From contig JANXWY010000255.1 of assembly GCA_025350905.1 (NCBI GenBank), positions 1-35,083 of the forward strand: DNA of 35,083 bases, given 5' to 3'. The translations under genes and the position numbers were made by a program. The notes under the pieces were generated by a model. It did no database searches. It was not told where the DNA came from and saw only the letters and a list, made by a program, of their open reading frames with translations. This document shows, one piece after another, positions 6,916 to 20,879 of this stretch (its first letter is position 1; each line of letters opens with the position of its first letter). This DNA is from Verrucomicrobiota bacterium. GTDB taxonomy: Bacteria > Verrucomicrobiota > Verrucomicrobiia > Limisphaerales > JADLHS01.

Positions 6916-8178
6916 TCATTCCAATCGGAAAAACTTGCGGGCATTATCCTGTAGCATTCGTCGCGCGAGCCGCTCAGCCGTGGCGTCACTGAAATATCCG
7001 CCGGCGAGTTTTTCCTCCAGCACTTCCGCAATCAGGCGCCGCGCCGTTTGCATCGCGCCGTAGGTTTCTTCAACGTGCCAGTTGTCGCCGCCCAACATCA
7101 GGCGGGTTTCGTCCGGCAACACTTCAATCGCTTCGTGCAGCGCCAGTTTGAAGTGGGATGGACTCAGCAGAAACGACCACGTCAAATCCAGCCAGATGTT
7201 GCGATAGACAAACGCCATCCCGAGCAGGTCGCGGCTCCACGGATAGGCCAGGTGCATCAGCAGGAAGCGGGTGCGCGGGTGTCGTTCAATCAATCCGGCG
7301 ACGCCGAGCGGGTGCGATCCGCGCAGGAGCCCGGTCCCAAGATGCATTTGCACGGGCAGATCGTGCGCGGCGGCGATTCGGCAGAGATGATCCACGATGA
7401 AATCACCGAACGCCTTCCGTTCCGCCGGCGGCGGGGCGACTTGACCCCAGGCCGCGCGGGCTCGCCGTTCATCGGGGTCGTCGAAATTCACGTCACGGTC
7501 ATAGGCGAGCGCGTTCTTGAGGGCGACCTGACCGCGCGCGGGCATGCCAGCCACCAGTTTTTCGAGCGCGGCAAGATATTCATCGAACGAACTCGCACCG
7601 AGTCCGACTCGCGCTAACAACTCGTGTGCCCGGTTGCCATTGTGATCGCGCGCTTGGGGATGCCAGCCGAGCGCAAGCGAGTTGATGCGCATGACCGAAC
7701 GGTAGTTCGCTCCGAGCGCGGGCCGGGGATCGAGCAGCGGATCGTTGTAGGCGTCGGTGATGACCGTCGTGAGGCGCGCGCGGTTCAAGATTTCGTGCCG
7801 CCACTCCGGCCGGCGATGGGCCGCCCGCACCGCAGCATCGAGCGTCTGCCAGTTGTCGCGCGTAATTTCTGGCGCGCCGCTGCCATGCAGTTCGACGACG
7901 GCACGAACGAGATTCCGGACGAAAGCATTGGCGCCACTCTGATCCAGAAACGGCGCGAGCGCCTCCCAGCTCGTCGGCCCGGCGGCTGTGAGCATCGGGT
8001 CGACCGCGCGGGACTCGGAGGGCAGGCAATACGGCCGGGCGCGGGCCCAGCCGGCGTAACTTTGCTGGAAAAGTTGCACCAGGTTGACCTCGCGCTGAAG
8101 GATGATCTCGGGGAGATGATGCTCATGCACATCCACGATAGGGAGCTGCCCAACGAATTCGCGAATGGAGGCTGTCAT
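6916..8178 (-). CDS. Metal-dependent amidohydrolase family protein
   Basis: The 420-residue cytosolic protein belongs to the amidohydrolase superfamily (Amidohydro_2/uronate isomerase-like TIM barrel). Likely metal ligands are the N-terminal HxH (VDVHEHH, His18 and His20), His279 (QMHLGTG), His309 (LMHLAYPW) and Asp365 (LGGDNW). Lys221 (ALKNAL) may bridge the metals. ATG 8178 was chosen because the open frame upstream offers only a TTG at 8208, which would fall inside the promoter, and because MTASIREFVGQLPIVDVHEHH starts like the family. A good promoter (TTGACA-N17-TCAAAT) lies directly upstream and leaves a very short leader. The gene is convergent with the ThuA operon and adjacent to the GH43 gene, so a hydrolase or isomerase acting on a sugar-derived acid or lactone is possible but unproven. 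Confidence 0.85.
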   Translation of the reverse strand: MTASIREFVGQLPIVDVHEHHLPEIILQREVNLVQLFQQSYAGWARARPYCLPSESRAVDPMLTAAGPTSWEALAPFLDQSGANAFVRNLVRAVVELHGSGAPEITRDNWQTLDAAVRAAHRRPEWRHEILNRARLTTVITDAYNDPLLDPRPALGANYRSVMRINSLALGWHPQARDHNGNRAHELLARVGLGASSFDEYLAALEKLVAGMPARGQVALKNALAYDRDVNFDDPDERRARAAWGQVAPPPAERKAFGDFIVDHLCRIAAAHDLPVQMHLGTGLLRGSHPLGVAGLIERHPRTRFLLMHLAYPWSRDLLGMAFVYRNIWLDLTWSFLLSPSHFKLALHEAIEVLPDETRLMLGGDNWHVEETYGAMQTARRLIAEVLEEKLAGGYFSDATAERLARRMLQDNARKFFRLE

Positions 8179-8192
8179 AATAGAGCGCCCAG

Positions 8193-8221
8193 ATTTGACG
8201 GGAGCCAACGCAGTGTGTCAA
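8193..8221 (-). promoter_or_regulatory. Sigma70-type promoter of the amidohydrolase gene
   Basis: On the minus strand TTGACA (8216-8221, perfect -35) and TCAAAT (8193-8198, four of six matches to the -10) are separated by 17 bases. Only 14 bases lie between the -10 and the ATG, so the transcript would be nearly leaderless. The same arrangement recurs at 10344-10372, which strengthens the call. Confidence 0.6.
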
Positions 8222-8241
8222 CGCTGTCTACGGCCACGGGA

Positions 8242-10047
8242 CTACCGCTCCACTTTGAGGTTCACCGGTTGACCTGCTGGCGACACACCGTTCTCATTGA
8301 ACGCCTCGATGGCAAAGCTGTAGTCCTCGTCGACGGTCAACGCACGGAGTTCGAGGGCGGTTCGCTGGTCGGCAAATACCTGGTAGGTCTGGTAAAGCTT
8401 GGTGGCTTGGATGCCCCATAGAATGTTGTAGCCGACGGCGCCCGGGACTTCGTCCCAAGTGATGAAGGCGTTGCGTGGATCATTGCCATCGCGGCGGACG
8501 TGGAAGTTCTCCGGCGCTCGCGGCGACTCACCGCCCCCATGCCCGAAGACACGAATATCGCTGATCGCGAGATTGGGTGCGGCTACGTAGGCATGCTCAT
8601 ACTTGATGTGTCGCGTTCGGACCGGCGCCGGCAGCTCGAGGTAGGCATTGGGCCGATCCCGCTTCTCCTTCGTCAAGTCGACCAGCACGCTCCAATTGGT
8701 GCCGTCGAGCGAATGGTACAACTTGAACTGCGTGTAGACCGAGGCATCACTCGCGTACAGGCCGGACTTGTAATCGGTGAAGTTCACTTGCACGGCGCGC
8801 ACTTCGCAGGGGCCGCCCAAATCGAGCGAGAGCCATTCGCCAGGTTGGTTCGAGTTCGCAACCCAGAAGGTGCGCGGGTTTTCGTCCGTCACGTTCGCGG
8901 CGGCATAAACGTCGCGATACGAGGAAGCCGTGACCGGTTTGCGGTAGGACAACAACATCCAGCCGGTGAAAAGCTCATCCTTGTTCTGCCACTTCCGGGT
9001 CGGCAAAAAGTGAGGAAAATCGCCGAAGCGCGTGTCGGCGAACAGCAGCCCATCTGGGTCGAAGGCCGCAGGAAACATCGCGATGCGCCGCTCGAAATCG
9101 AAATTCACGGCCCACCACGGCGTGCCGGTGTTCCAATAGTTCCCATAGTTGTCCTGAAAGGTGTTGCCATGTCCGGCACCAGTGACGAACCCACCGGGTT
9201 TGTACGAGATGGGATTGTTCGCTGCGTAGGTGAATGGTCCGAGCGGACCGTCGCCGACATAGGTGCCGTTGGCATAGACGTTGTATTCGGTGCCGGGCGC
9301 GGCGTATTGGAGGTAGTATTTTCCGTGGTGCTTTGTCATCCAGGCACCTTCCATGAACGGCGTAATCGTGCTGGTGTGGTTGGGGCCAAAGCGTTCCCAC
9401 CCGTGGAGCTCGGGATGCAGCTTGAAAAGTTCGCCGGCGGTGCCGCGGTACGTGAGGCGATTCGTATAGTCGAGTTCGATTCCGTAAATCGGGTAGAGAT
9501 TCGAGGACCCGAAATACATGAACCAGCGGTCGGTATCATCATCATGGAACAACGCCGGGTCCCAGGGCCCCGCCGCTCCCGGCAGCAGCGGGAGCAGGGG
9601 ATTGAAATACTCGAGCCGGCCGGTTTCGGGCGTCGTTGTCATCCAGATCGGGCGTTGGTCAAAGGTGGATTGAAAAAGATAGAGTTTGCCGCCGACGGAG
9701 ATCGCGGCCGGGGCGCACATGTCCTCCTTGGGCCATTGATGCGGGGCCACATCGGGTTTGATGAACCGCCAGTTGACGAGATCCTTCGAGTGCCACCAAC
9801 CGCCAGAGATCGTGACGAATAAAAAATATTCGCTCTTGTGATTCACGATCACGGGATCAGCGCCGGCACGGTAGGAGATGCCGCGGGCTTTCTGTTCGAA
9901 GTTGTATTGATAGTTGATGTCGACCGGATTGCAGTAAGTCTTTTGCCCGGCAAACTGGGCGAAGCACGGCCAGCTGCCACTGCAAATCAGTGCGATCAGC
10001 AGCAGGGATCTGAAAGACGCGAGATGCGCTACGCGCCACAGCGTCAA
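8242..10047 (-). CDS. Secreted GH43 family glycosidase with F5/8 type C and FN3 domains
   Basis: From the TTG at 10047 the protein has 601 residues. Residues 1-30 form a signal peptide (core SLLLIALICSG, cleavage near CFA-QF). Residues 37-345 are a five-bladed GH43 propeller with the expected acids: Asp64 (GADPV, base), Asp163 (WDPAL) and Glu233 (MEGAW, acid). GAGHGNTF (290-297) is also typical. Residues 375-503 form an F5/8 type C carbohydrate-binding domain, and 510-600 an FN3 domain. GH43 enzymes cut arabinan, xylan and related side chains; the substrate here is open. The frame stays open upstream to a GTG at 10341, but those 98 codons precede the signal peptide and partly match the start of the amidohydrolase gene, so I treat them as untranslated or decayed DNA. 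No in-frame ATG lies close to the leader, which makes the start uncertain. Confidence 0.85.
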   Translation of the reverse strand: MTLWRVAHLASFRSLLLIALICSGSWPCFAQFAGQKTYCNPVDINYQYNFEQKARGISYRAGADPVIVNHKSEYFLFVTISGGWWHSKDLVNWRFIKPDVAPHQWPKEDMCAPAAISVGGKLYLFQSTFDQRPIWMTTTPETGRLEYFNPLLPLLPGAAGPWDPALFHDDDTDRWFMYFGSSNLYPIYGIELDYTNRLTYRGTAGELFKLHPELHGWERFGPNHTSTITPFMEGAWMTKHHGKYYLQYAAPGTEYNVYANGTYVGDGPLGPFTYAANNPISYKPGGFVTGAGHGNTFQDNYGNYWNTGTPWWAVNFDFERRIAMFPAAFDPDGLLFADTRFGDFPHFLPTRKWQNKDELFTGWMLLSYRKPVTASSYRDVYAAANVTDENPRTFWVANSNQPGEWLSLDLGGPCEVRAVQVNFTDYKSGLYASDASVYTQFKLYHSLDGTNWSVLVDLTKEKRDRPNAYLELPAPVRTRHIKYEHAYVAAPNLAISDIRVFGHGGGESPRAPENFHVRRDGNDPRNAFITWDEVPGAVGYNILWGIQATKLYQTYQVFADQRTALELRALTVDEDYSFAIEAFNENGVSPAGQPVNLKVER

Positions 10048-10265
10048 CCCGGGGTGGGCATGCCCAGGTGATTTTATTCGAAGGGCGTGCTGTCGCAACG
10101 ACGGAAACCTGTGGTTCTGGCTACCGTCCCGTCCAATGACACCACCGAAGGCGAAGGCTGGCCGGATTCGACGGCCCGCCTTTCGAATTTTGGCCACCTC
10201 AGTGGCCAACAACTGTTGGCGATACCATGGCCGGCACAGGATTTCGTGGTGCCGTGTGGGTCGGC

Positions 10266-10329
10266 GATGATGCTGAGGCACATCCCTCAAGGGAAAGTGC
10301 GCGACAATTTCGTGAATTGAGTCGTTCAT
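10266..10329 (-). pseudogene. Remnant: first ~21 codons of an amidohydrolase paralogue
   Basis: From ATG 10329 the minus strand encodes MNDSIHEIVAHFPLRDVPQHH. This aligns without gaps to the start of the intact amidohydrolase (MTASIREFVGQLPIVDVHEHH), sharing SI, E, V, P, DV and HH. The key first His of the HxH metal site is replaced by Pro. After this stretch similarity stops and the frame runs on into the GH43 leader. With its matching promoter it looks like the 5' end of a duplicated gene whose body was lost. Translation as a GH43 extension cannot be excluded. Confidence 0.5.
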
Positions 10330-10343
10330 GCCGGGGCGCACAA

Positions 10344-10372
10344 AGTTGACGTGAGGTGGCGGCTCGTGTCAA
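10344..10372 (-). promoter_or_regulatory. Duplicated promoter upstream of the remnant and GH43 gene
   Basis: On the minus strand TTGACA (10367-10372) and TCAACT (10344-10349) are 17 bases apart, again with 14 bases to the following ATG. The flanks CAGCGTTGACAC and CGTCAA-(9)-GCGC are shared with the amidohydrolase promoter. The geometry is identical, so the two are probably duplicates. It is the best visible promoter for the GH43 gene, about 300 bases upstream of its likely start. Confidence 0.5.
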
Positions 10373-10546
10373 CGCTGCCTTGAGTGGTTGCTACATTGAG
10401 CGATTCCGCCGGTGAGGGAGGCGACCCGCGGACGGCAAATCGAGCGCAGCATGAACCAGGTTAGGCAGCTCAAGAGTTGGCGCGACAGAATTGCGAGCTG
10501 ATGGTGCGTCCTGCTCCGCCTCAAGCTGGCCCGCCGCCGGAATAAT

Positions 10547-10715: not shown

Positions 10716-10725
10716 ACAAACGTTG

Positions 10726-13404
10726 ATGAACTCCGCACCAAGCCACTCGCCGCATTCTCGGATCCAAAATACGAACCTGAGATTCCGGTCCCTAACCATT
10801 ACCTATTTCGTCATGGCCGCAGCTTGGATACTGGCTGCCAGCTCGACTGGGGCCGCCAATCTGCTGGTTAACCCCGGATTCGAGAGCAGCAGCGGTCACG
10901 TCGTCCCCGTAGGTTGGACTCGTTTTGCACCCACCAACGCCCAACTCGGGGGCAATTATTGGGTTGAAGCGCCAGCGCATTCGGGATCGGTTGGATGGAA
11001 ACAATGGGGCGCGGCTTATGCCGCGGGCCAAACCAATGTGGCCGGTTTATCCCAGAGTTTCAGCAGCGCGCCCGGTTCGGTTTACCAGGCCACCGGTTGG
11101 ATGTACACCAAGAGCAACGATACGTTGGGGACAGATTGCACGACGTGGCTGGAAGTTTCTTTCTTAGGATCCAGCAGCAACCTGCTCGCGCTGTACAAGT
11201 CGGACAATTTTAACGCAGCTGCGGGAACGGACACCTGGCTGCAATACCCGGTAACACAGGCATGTGATATTTCCGCTCCCCTGCCGCCGGGCGACCTGAG
11301 TTATCCAACGTACGCCGCGACCGGTACCGTCAGTCAAATCGTTGCCCCCATTGGAACGACTACCGTTCGTTACCGCTATGCGTATAGCCAGGCCGGCACC
11401 CAAGGCGGCTCCGCAAATTTTGACGATGCCAGCTTGGATCAAATCAGCGGGCCGATTCCACCGGTCATCAGCAGCCTTTTTCCGCTCAACATGATCTTCG
11501 TCATCCCCGGTGATGGCATCACCTTCAACGTCAGTTCGCCGAGCGGATTTACGATCAACAACAGCGGCATTCAACTGGTGGTGAACGGAGTGGATGTTTC
11601 AAGCAGCCTGGCGATCAGCGGGACCGCGTCGAACAAAAGCGTGGCCTATTATGGACTCCACTCCAACTTGACCTACACGGCATCCATTAAAGTGACGGAC
11701 AGCTTTAACTTCACCGCCGCGGCGAGCACTTATTTCGAAACCACCTGGGTCGGAATTGAGCCGATCACGTACCTGTGGGAGGCCGAAGACTTTGATTTTG
11801 ACAGCGGAATTTACCTCAACACTCCGGAGCTTTGCAGCGCCAGTGGCAATCCGAATTGCTACTTCGGAAAAGTGGGCGTGGAAGGGGTCGATGAGCACAA
11901 CCTGAATGGCGGTGGCAGCCACCAATATCGCCCGGCGGATCCGATGGCGACCTCGGTCTCGGGCGACTATTTGCGCAAGAACCTGTTTGTGGCGGGCAGG
12001 CTCGATTACCGAATCGATCCGTTCAACTCCAGCGAGTGGGTGAACTACACCCGCGACTGGCCGAACAGCACCAATTGGGTGATCGCGCGCCTCGCCACCG
12101 ATGTCGGGCTTGCTGGGACGCTGACGTTGAGCAAGGTGAACCCCGACACGAGCACCACGGATTTAGGCGCCTTCACGATTGCCAGCGGACGCGGGTGGAG
12201 CACTTTTGAAAACGTCTATCTCAAGGACACCAATGGCTTCCTGGCGAACGTGATCCTCAACGGCAAGGACACCTTGCGCGTGACTAGTGGCGGCAACCTC
12301 TTACCGGGCTTTTTCATGCTCGTCGCCGCCCAGGTGGATTTGCCCCAGTTGAGCAACCTGTATCCGAGTGGCGCGCGCCCGTTCGAGCCCACCAACGCCC
12401 TAAGCTTTACCGTGGCCACGACGGGGGCCACCTTTCCTCCGAGCGGGATCAAAGTGAACCTGGACGGCCGAGACGTTTCCGCGGGTCTGGCTATTACCGG
12501 CTCGGCTTCGACCAAGAACGTGGTTTATCCCGGATTGATGCCCAATGCGATGCACACGGCAATTATTACCGTGACCAATTCCCTCGGCCACGGCATCGGC
12601 GTAACGAACCACTTCGATACATTCACCCAGGGCAACTACATGGTTGAGGCGGAGGATTTCGACTATGATGGTGGACAGTACGTTGGAATTTGGGAACCCG
12701 CCGCGTATTCAGGATTGGGGGCCACCACCAACATTGACTTCCAACATAGCCCTTTCACCCCGGAAGAGTTCAAGTATCGGGCCCCCGGCGGCGGCGTTCC
12801 CGAGGACCTGACCAAAGACACACTGCGCGATGTTTTCCTAAATGTGGGAGCGATTGATTATGACCTGACTTGGTTTGGCAACGGCGATTGGGCCAATTAC
12901 ACGAGGGTCTATCCGACGGGCAACTTCTATGTGTATGGGCGTTTTTCCGGCCTCAACGGCTACTCGATGTATTTGGACCAGGTCATCAGCGGAGCGGGGA
13001 CGACCGGGCAATCGACCAAGCGTCTCGGTCGCTGGGGGGCCGTCGGGCTCGGATACAGCATCTATGATTGGGTGCCATTGACGGATGAAGGACTAGTAGC
13101 GCCGGTCGTAATAAAGTTGAATGGTCTCGGTACGCTGCGCATCGCCACCACGGGCAACAGCAACCCAAATTATTTCATGCTGGTGCCAGCAACTGGCATC
13201 CCTTTGACGGCTGCCCGCTCGGGCAACAATCTCGTCATCTCCTTTCCGACCCAATCGGGCGTGATCTACCGGGTATATTACGGGGATAATTTAACGACTG
13301 GCAATTGGGCCCTGCTAACCAGTGTGATCGGTGACGGAACGGTTAAATCGGTGAACGACCTCGCGACCGCAGCGGGAAGATTTTACAAGGTCGGCGCGCC
13401 CTAG
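10726..13404 (+). CDS. Large secreted protein with carbohydrate-binding and Ig-like modules
   Basis: The 892-residue protein has an N-terminal signal (hydrophobic core about 23-40, cleavage near TGA-ANLLVN). Residues 46-240 look like a CBM4/9-type jelly roll (NLLVNPGFES opening, NFDDASLDQ ending). Two copies of an Ig-like plus CBM6/35-like module follow: Ig at 245-340 and CBM at 347-535 (YLWEAEDFDFDSG), then Ig at 540-632 and CBM at 637-820 (YMVEAEDFDYDGG). Residues 828-892 form a tail (VIYRVYYGDNLTTGNW, RFYKVGAP) also found in the next gene. No catalytic domain is evident, so it probably binds glycan at the cell surface. ATG 10726 directly follows an in-frame TTG; a shorter start at Met30 would still leave a leader. 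It probably belongs with the GH144-like gene 109 bases downstream. Confidence 0.82.
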   Translation: MNSAPSHSPHSRIQNTNLRFRSLTITYFVMAAAWILAASSTGAANLLVNPGFESSSGHVVPVGWTRFAPTNAQLGGNYWVEAPAHSGSVGWKQWGAAYAAGQTNVAGLSQSFSSAPGSVYQATGWMYTKSNDTLGTDCTTWLEVSFLGSSSNLLALYKSDNFNAAAGTDTWLQYPVTQACDISAPLPPGDLSYPTYAATGTVSQIVAPIGTTTVRYRYAYSQAGTQGGSANFDDASLDQISGPIPPVISSLFPLNMIFVIPGDGITFNVSSPSGFTINNSGIQLVVNGVDVSSSLAISGTASNKSVAYYGLHSNLTYTASIKVTDSFNFTAAASTYFETTWVGIEPITYLWEAEDFDFDSGIYLNTPELCSASGNPNCYFGKVGVEGVDEHNLNGGGSHQYRPADPMATSVSGDYLRKNLFVAGRLDYRIDPFNSSEWVNYTRDWPNSTNWVIARLATDVGLAGTLTLSKVNPDTSTTDLGAFTIASGRGWSTFENVYLKDTNGFLANVILNGKDTLRVTSGGNLLPGFFMLVAAQVDLPQLSNLYPSGARPFEPTNALSFTVATTGATFPPSGIKVNLDGRDVSAGLAITGSASTKNVVYPGLMPNAMHTAIITVTNSLGHGIGVTNHFDTFTQGNYMVEAEDFDYDGGQYVGIWEPAAYSGLGATTNIDFQHSPFTPEEFKYRAPGGGVPEDLTKDTLRDVFLNVGAIDYDLTWFGNGDWANYTRVYPTGNFYVYGRFSGLNGYSMYLDQVISGAGTTGQSTKRLGRWGAVGLGYSIYDWVPLTDEGLVAPVVIKLNGLGTLRIATTGNSNPNYFMLVPATGIPLTAARSGNNLVISFPTQSGVIYRVYYGDNLTTGNWALLTSVIGDGTVKSVNDLATAAGRFYKVGAP

Positions 13405-19387: not shown

Positions 19388-19519
19388 ATGATTATGCAAT
19401 CTAGCCGCCGTAAATTTTTCAAAAAACCCGCCGTGGCCAAACGCTTCACTGACCCAGAGGCGAATAAGTATCTCCAGCGCGAGTATCGCCCGGGCTTTGT
19501 AGTCCCGCAGTTAGCTTGA
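19388..19519 (+). CDS. Small ORF with twin-arginine-like start (43 aa), uncertain
   Basis: ATG 19388 opens a 43-residue frame ending at TGA 19517-19519, 19 bases before the Gfo/Idh/MocA start. It reads MIMQSSRRKFFKKP at the start and YLQREYRPGFVVPQLA at the end. SRRKFFK imitates a Tat motif but no hydrophobic segment follows. It may be a genuine small protein co-transcribed with the oxidoreductase, an upstream ORF, or the trace of a decayed leader. The composition (basic, aromatic, few rare codons) looks more coding than chance. Confidence 0.35.
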   Translation: MIMQSSRRKFFKKPAVAKRFTDPEANKYLQREYRPGFVVPQLA

Positions 19520-19538
19520 AGATTGGAACCCAAAAATT

Positions 19539-20879
19539 ATGAAAACGAATCAAACTCATCCCCGGACAAAACCCACGGCAGTTTCGCGGCGCGATTTTCT
19601 TCGCACCGCCCGCAATGTCACCGTCCTCGCCGGGCTCGGCGTGGCGGGTCCAAATATTTTTCTGAATCGCACCAAGGCCGCCACGGGCCAGAATCCCAGC
19701 GAGTTCATCCGGGTCGGTTTTATCGGCGTCGGCGGGCAGGGCACCAGCAATCTGCAGGCGTTGATGAAGAACGCCGTCGCCGTTTGCGACGTGGACCAGG
19801 CGCGCGCGCAAACCGCCCAAGCGCTGGTCACGAAAACCAATGGCCAGCCCTGCGCGGTCTTCGGTGACTACCGCAAGCTGCTCGAAGACAAGTCCATTGA
19901 CGCGGTGCTCATCAGTACGCCCGATCACTGGCATACCTTGCCCGCCCTGCACGCCTGCGAGGCGGGGAAGGATGTCTATTGTGAAAAGCCACTGACGCTG
20001 TTCATTGACGAAGGTCGCGTGCTCGTGGAGACGGTGCGCCGCACCCAGCGGGTCTTCCAGACCGGCAGCCAACAGCGCTCCGATGCCAAGTTTCTCAAAG
20101 GTTGCGAATATGTTCGTTCGGGTCGCATTGGCAAAATAAAGACCGTGAAGGTGGGGCTGCCGGCCGTGAATTATTTGGAGCGGGCGAAGCCGCCGGTGAT
20201 TCCCGACAGCGCTCCGCCGGCGGGACTGGATTACGAGCGGTGGCTCGGCCCGGCGCCGCAGCGGCCCTATAACCAGAATCATGTTTTCTATCTGTTCCGC
20301 TTTTTCTGGGATTACTCCGGCGGCCAGATGACCAACTTTGGCGCGCATCACCTGGACATCGCCCAATGGGGATTGGGCATGGACGCGAGCGGTCCGGTGG
20401 AAATCGAAGGCACCGCCGTTTACAACGCCGAAAAATACTACGAAACCCCGCAGACCTTTGACGTCACTTACAAATATGCCAACGGCACCGTCTTACTGTG
20501 CAGTGGCGGCACCGACAAATATCCAGGGGGCACGACCTTCGAAGGCGAACGCGGCACCATCTTTGTCAGTCGCGGCAACGTCGAATCCACGCCCGAGGAA
20601 ATCCTCACCCATCCGCTGGACGACCGGTCGGTCCGCCTCTACGCCAGCACGGATCACCACCAAAACTGGCTCGATTGCATCAAGACTCGCCGGGACCCGA
20701 TTTGCAACGTCGAGATCGGGCATCGCTCGGCCACCGTTTGTCATCTCGGCAACATCGCCATTCGGACCGGCAAAAAGGTCCACTGGGATCCGAAAAAGCA
20801 GGAAGTGGTGGGTGATGCCGAAGTGGCCCAATGGGTCCGCCGACCCTACCGCGCCCCGTGGCAGCTGCCGCTCGTTTGA
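19539..20879 (+). CDS. Tat-exported Gfo/Idh/MocA family oxidoreductase
   Basis: The 446-residue protein has a Tat signal (SRRDFLRTARN at 16-26, then TVLAGLGVAG). The Rossmann nucleotide-binding motif is GFIGVGGQGTSN (60-71). CEKPLT (148-153) is the family's conserved Glu-Lys-Pro, with Lys150 the expected catalytic Lys. GAHHLDIAQWGLG (268-280) supplies the active-site His pair. Exported members keep NAD(P) or a related cofactor bound, which explains Tat use: the protein is folded before export. Relatives include glycoside 3-dehydrogenases, so it could make the 3-keto-glycosides expected as substrate for the DUF1080 protein at 4785. That link is inference, since the genes are 14 kb apart. The substrate is not identifiable from sequence. 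Confidence 0.9.
   Translation: MKTNQTHPRTKPTAVSRRDFLRTARNVTVLAGLGVAGPNIFLNRTKAATGQNPSEFIRVGFIGVGGQGTSNLQALMKNAVAVCDVDQARAQTAQALVTKTNGQPCAVFGDYRKLLEDKSIDAVLISTPDHWHTLPALHACEAGKDVYCEKPLTLFIDEGRVLVETVRRTQRVFQTGSQQRSDAKFLKGCEYVRSGRIGKIKTVKVGLPAVNYLERAKPPVIPDSAPPAGLDYERWLGPAPQRPYNQNHVFYLFRFFWDYSGGQMTNFGAHHLDIAQWGLGMDASGPVEIEGTAVYNAEKYYETPQTFDVTYKYANGTVLLCSGGTDKYPGGTTFEGERGTIFVSRGNVESTPEEILTHPLDDRSVRLYASTDHHQNWLDCIKTRRDPICNVEIGHRSATVCHLGNIAIRTGKKVHWDPKKQEVVGDAEVAQWVRRPYRAPWQLPLV

Follow-up and report, generated by a model that had tools for sequence, protein, structure and literature searches.

We conclude that the minus strand at 10382-10231 of the analyzed window, a stretch of 35,083 nucleotides of verrucomicrobial DNA taken as a whole, is in all likelihood (we estimate about 80%) a pseudogene relic of a second amidohydrolase gene, of which the promoter and two coding pieces (codons 1-20 and 121-133) are left, with the rest lost or replaced. 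This assignment is based on the even distribution of base changes over codon positions, the loss of catalytic residues, and the lack of coding signal in the frame leading toward the downstream GH43 gene. The GH43 gene itself (8242-10047, minus strand) encodes a signal peptide together with F5/8 type C and fn3 domains (Pfam). Only 12 bp separate the GH43 stop codon from the promoter region of the intact amidohydrolase gene (8179-8229, minus strand), where the similarity to the relic promoter sets in; this region precedes a 420-residue Amidohydro_2 coding sequence at 6916-8178 on the same strand (Pfam PF04909, E 3e-18).

Alignment of the two amidohydrolase gene starts

The best ungapped alignment pairs the minus strand at 10382-10265 with the minus strand at 8229-8112, which covers the promoter of the amidohydrolase and its codons 1-22, with 80/118 identical bases (68%). 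Its score of 84 compares with a shuffle mean of 19-25 and was matched by 0/2000 dinucleotide shuffles; a search of the whole genome returned this pair as the sole match (E 3.4e-4), with no third copy. The relic resembles the ortholog in the congener G001 (73%, E about 1e-12) even more closely than the gene in its own genome. The relic promoter region, AAGGCAGCGTTGACAC-N-CTCACGTCAACT (10330-10382, minus strand), ends just before the relic start codon and matches the intact promoter without gaps, and the start codon and first ~20 codons, MNDSIHEIVAHFPLRDVPQH, occupy 10265-10329 (minus strand). Both copies contain a TTGACA box, followed after 17 nt by TCAAAT in the intact gene (8221-8193) or TCAACT in the relic (10372-10344) and, after a further 14 nt, by ATG at 8178 or 10329. 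The aligned first codons of the two copies translate as MTASIREFVGQLPIVDVHEHH and MNDSIHEIVAHFPLRDVPQHH, and the metal-binding HxH site changes from HEH in the intact amidohydrolase to PQH in the relic.

The preliminary description had thus recognized correctly that the minus strand at 10266-10372 duplicates the promoter and gene start, that both copies share this arrangement of boxes, and that HxH is lost in the copy; the extent of its interval needs revision, as the alignment reaches about 10 bases further on the promoter side. The similarity likewise continues past the promoter boxes through all 118 columns.

A second, collinear piece strengthens the homology. Directly after codon 20, the relic resumes in frame with amidohydrolase codons 121-133 (CDS 361-399), present as HRRPTRHHEILCR for HRRPEWQHEVLNR at 10269-10231 (minus strand) and identical to the G001 ortholog at 30/39 bases. 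The intact gene and 5/5 homologues tested all matched at the same CDS position and frame, exactly where the first piece ends, and for the best three 0-1/500 shuffles were as good. Codons 21 and 121 both start with CATC, leaving a 4-base repeat at the junction, for which the simplest account would be a 300-bp in-frame deletion between the CATC repeats. Comparison with the rest of the amidohydrolase revealed nothing recognizable in the relic region past codon 133. Most of the amidohydrolase body is therefore lost, as first described, although not all of it, given the retention of codons 121-133; the original reading of a duplication followed by deletion gains from this internal piece at the deletion junction. 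That two unrelated promoters are similar by chance, for which only the general commonness of TTGACA could be adduced, has a practically negligible probability and is refuted by the shuffles, the still better match to the G001 ortholog and the collinear second piece.

Loss of coding function and the start of GH43

When both copies are compared with a consensus built from intact orthologs, 8/6/9 changes at codon positions 1/2/3 are counted in the relic and 1/4/6 in the intact gene, indicating that purifying selection no longer acts on the relic protein. The frame extending into GH43 has a coding score of -0.20 bits per codon, whereas the value for real genes in the window is +0.35 +/- 0.12 bits per codon and none falls as low. 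Homology beyond chance (118 bp plus the 39-bp second piece) is thus combined with the disappearance of most of the gene, catalytic residues included. The open frame to GH43, the in-frame deletion and the intact -35 box were counted against the relic reading.

As previously stated, the frame of the copy does run into the GH43 leader: it is open from ATG 10329 into GH43, the deletion being in frame, although 17% of shuffles contain an open frame of this length. This continuity is what would favor a GH43 protein of 695 aa with a translated, amidohydrolase-derived N-terminal extension. We consider such a protein very unlikely, because the coding signal is absent, substitutions are spread evenly over codon positions, and the signal peptide would sit about 95 residues within the protein. 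Moreover, a conserved, translated extension in relatives, which would have spoken against the original reading, was sought and is absent from the GH43 orthologs in 14 other genomes. Most likely, GH43 starts at its own signal peptide, with TTG 10047 as the likely start codon, giving MTLWRVAHLASFRSLLLIALICSGSWPCFA.

In two GH43 orthologs (L072 in G056 and L077 in G147), a single stop codon interrupts the reading frame (TAA and TAG, respectively), so that this GH43 is either decaying or misassembled in some genomes.

The promoter copy and its relation to GH43

The pattern TTGACA-17-TCNNAT precedes the start codon of the intact gene and of its orthologs in G001, G032, G004 and G284, and is missing from G011, two further close homologues and the planctomycete copies. 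The 14-nt distance from the -10 side to the ATG is likewise conserved in orthologs. Because the motif is kept at orthologs with different surroundings, it looks like a genuine conserved promoter of this gene group. The exact motif was found nowhere else in the genome beyond the two copies, and a genome-wide regulon sharing it was rejected on this basis. We also considered an ECF41-type promoter, TGTCACA-16-CGTC (PMC3426412). The amidohydrolase promoter resembles this type in having CGTC at the -10 side, but its -35 box (TTGACA) and spacing do not fit, and its exact motif occurs at these two places in the genome only; this candidate was rejected.

We then evaluated whether the relic promoter has been kept because it drives GH43, which would give GH43 a control shared with the amidohydrolase. 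The copy lies upstream of GH43 and is co-directional with it, its TTGACA is perfect, it keeps 14/15 of the upstream bases that are invariant among orthologs, and no terminator-like site was found on that strand between the relic and GH43. Yet the invariant coding bases are preserved in the relic nearly as well (33/42; Fisher p = 0.19, or p = 0.42 with a looser threshold), and as this difference is not significant, selection on the promoter copy was not detected and is unsupported. Moreover, the sole lost invariant upstream base falls in the -10 box, where TCAAAT has become TCAACT, and with the relic promoter about 280 bp upstream of TTG 10047, the GH43 transcript would have a leader of about that length in nt. 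Closer to GH43, at 10098-10071, lies TTGCGA-16-TAAAAT, which weakly resembles a promoter, although 0.9 such sites are expected by chance in the scanned region. GH43 may have a promoter of its own. Since the arrangement also occurs in no other genome searched, we regard retention of the relic promoter for GH43 expression as unlikely. The initial proposal that the duplication placed GH43 under amidohydrolase control is possible but unsupported, in view of the lack of detectable selection, the distance of about 280 bp and the possible GH43 promoter. Any transcription from the relic promoter into GH43 would be incidental read-through. It is similarly doubtful, and no more probable, that the relic promoter, after an old duplication, transcribes GH43 at all, such that the exported glycosidase and the amidohydrolase would share one regulatory input created by decay.

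The 183-bp spacer that separates the relic from the likely GH43 start (10048-10230, minus strand) has no detectable relatives; in 320 genomes, its matches did not exceed about 30 bp. Searches for it as native GH43 upstream DNA yielded no significant match to GH43 ortholog upstreams, and nothing significant identified it as further amidohydrolase, a dispersed repeat or a known RNA.

Age, origin and comparison with known systems

In an alignment of 152 columns, the relic agrees with the G001 ortholog in 112/152 and with the neighboring intact gene in 101/152, and it carries only 1/17 of the changes private to the neighbor. From these two comparisons, the relic is an old copy and not a recent duplicate of its neighbor. 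The copies would have parted early on the neighbor's own branch, or before it; a tree built from the 152 columns placed the relic on no supported branch. An intact second amidohydrolase was sought in relatives and not found: a close relative of the gene occurs in 26 other genomes of the order, each time as one copy.

The intact amidohydrolase is 84-86% identical to its orthologs across several verrucomicrobial families, compared with about 65-81% for threonyl-tRNA synthetase over the best aligned stretch, and 79-80% identical to copies in Planctomycetes (Lacipirellula limnantheis and Pirellula sp.). These values suggest horizontal transfer, the gene appearing to move between lineages.

Of the 320 genomes searched in the order, this was the only one with GH43 next to the amidohydrolase; in G001 the two genes lie on different contigs, and no GH43 was found beside any amidohydrolase locus examined in either collection. 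The relic could have arisen by an old tandem duplication, or from an incoming xenolog beside the resident amidohydrolase; one copy would then have decayed, and the GH43 gene, located elsewhere in other genomes, would have arrived between the two. Tandem duplication and transfer beside a resident copy both fit, and the 152 columns favor no particular order of duplication, transfer and GH43 arrival. Because no synteny exists around the amidohydrolase in relatives, an ancestral empty site was not found. The similar stretches flanking GH43 in the same orientation might instead represent a long target-site duplication from GH43 insertion into the amidohydrolase 5' region. We judge this highly improbable and already disfavored: before the internal deletion, the duplication must have extended to CDS position 399 or beyond, and known target-site duplications are far shorter. 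In addition, the neighbor's private changes are missing from the relic, and there is no transposase among the window's Pfam hits and no long repeat around GH43.

Two further features of the window were observed. At 19440-19520 (plus strand), a second gene relic consists of the C-terminal 27 codons of a Gfo/Idh/MocA oxidoreductase, AKRFTDPEANKYLQREYRPGFVVPQLA-stop. At the DNA level it shares 80% identity with the 3' end of L042, an intact gene in G004, and it lies directly upstream of a different Gfo/Idh/MocA gene that the window itself carries at 19539. At 10723-13404 (plus strand), an 893-residue frame with a TTG start, beside a putative glucoamylase gene, has no Pfam or NCBIfam match.

Together, the amidohydrolase remnant is a pseudogene relic of the ordinary kind, a product of ordinary genome decay, and illustrates that what looks like a duplicated promoter in raw sequence can turn out to be the stump of a gene copy lost long ago. 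Like the products of gene fragmentation in Rickettsia (PMC2374718), the relic is what remains of a member of a known gene family after truncation, internal deletion and neutral change; in contrast to them, it stands alone next to an intact homologue, and its Verrucomicrobia genome shows no sign here of wholesale reduction. If GH43 were indeed expressed from the relic promoter, the locus would show how regulation can be rewired in nature when a gene decays into a pseudogene. A parallel for this is E. coli citT, which came under the rnk promoter through tandem duplication, and for which both the junction and the new expression were shown (PMC5918244). In both cases, a gene is preceded on its own strand by a foreign promoter with a truncated gene start, but the copy described here is old and decayed.
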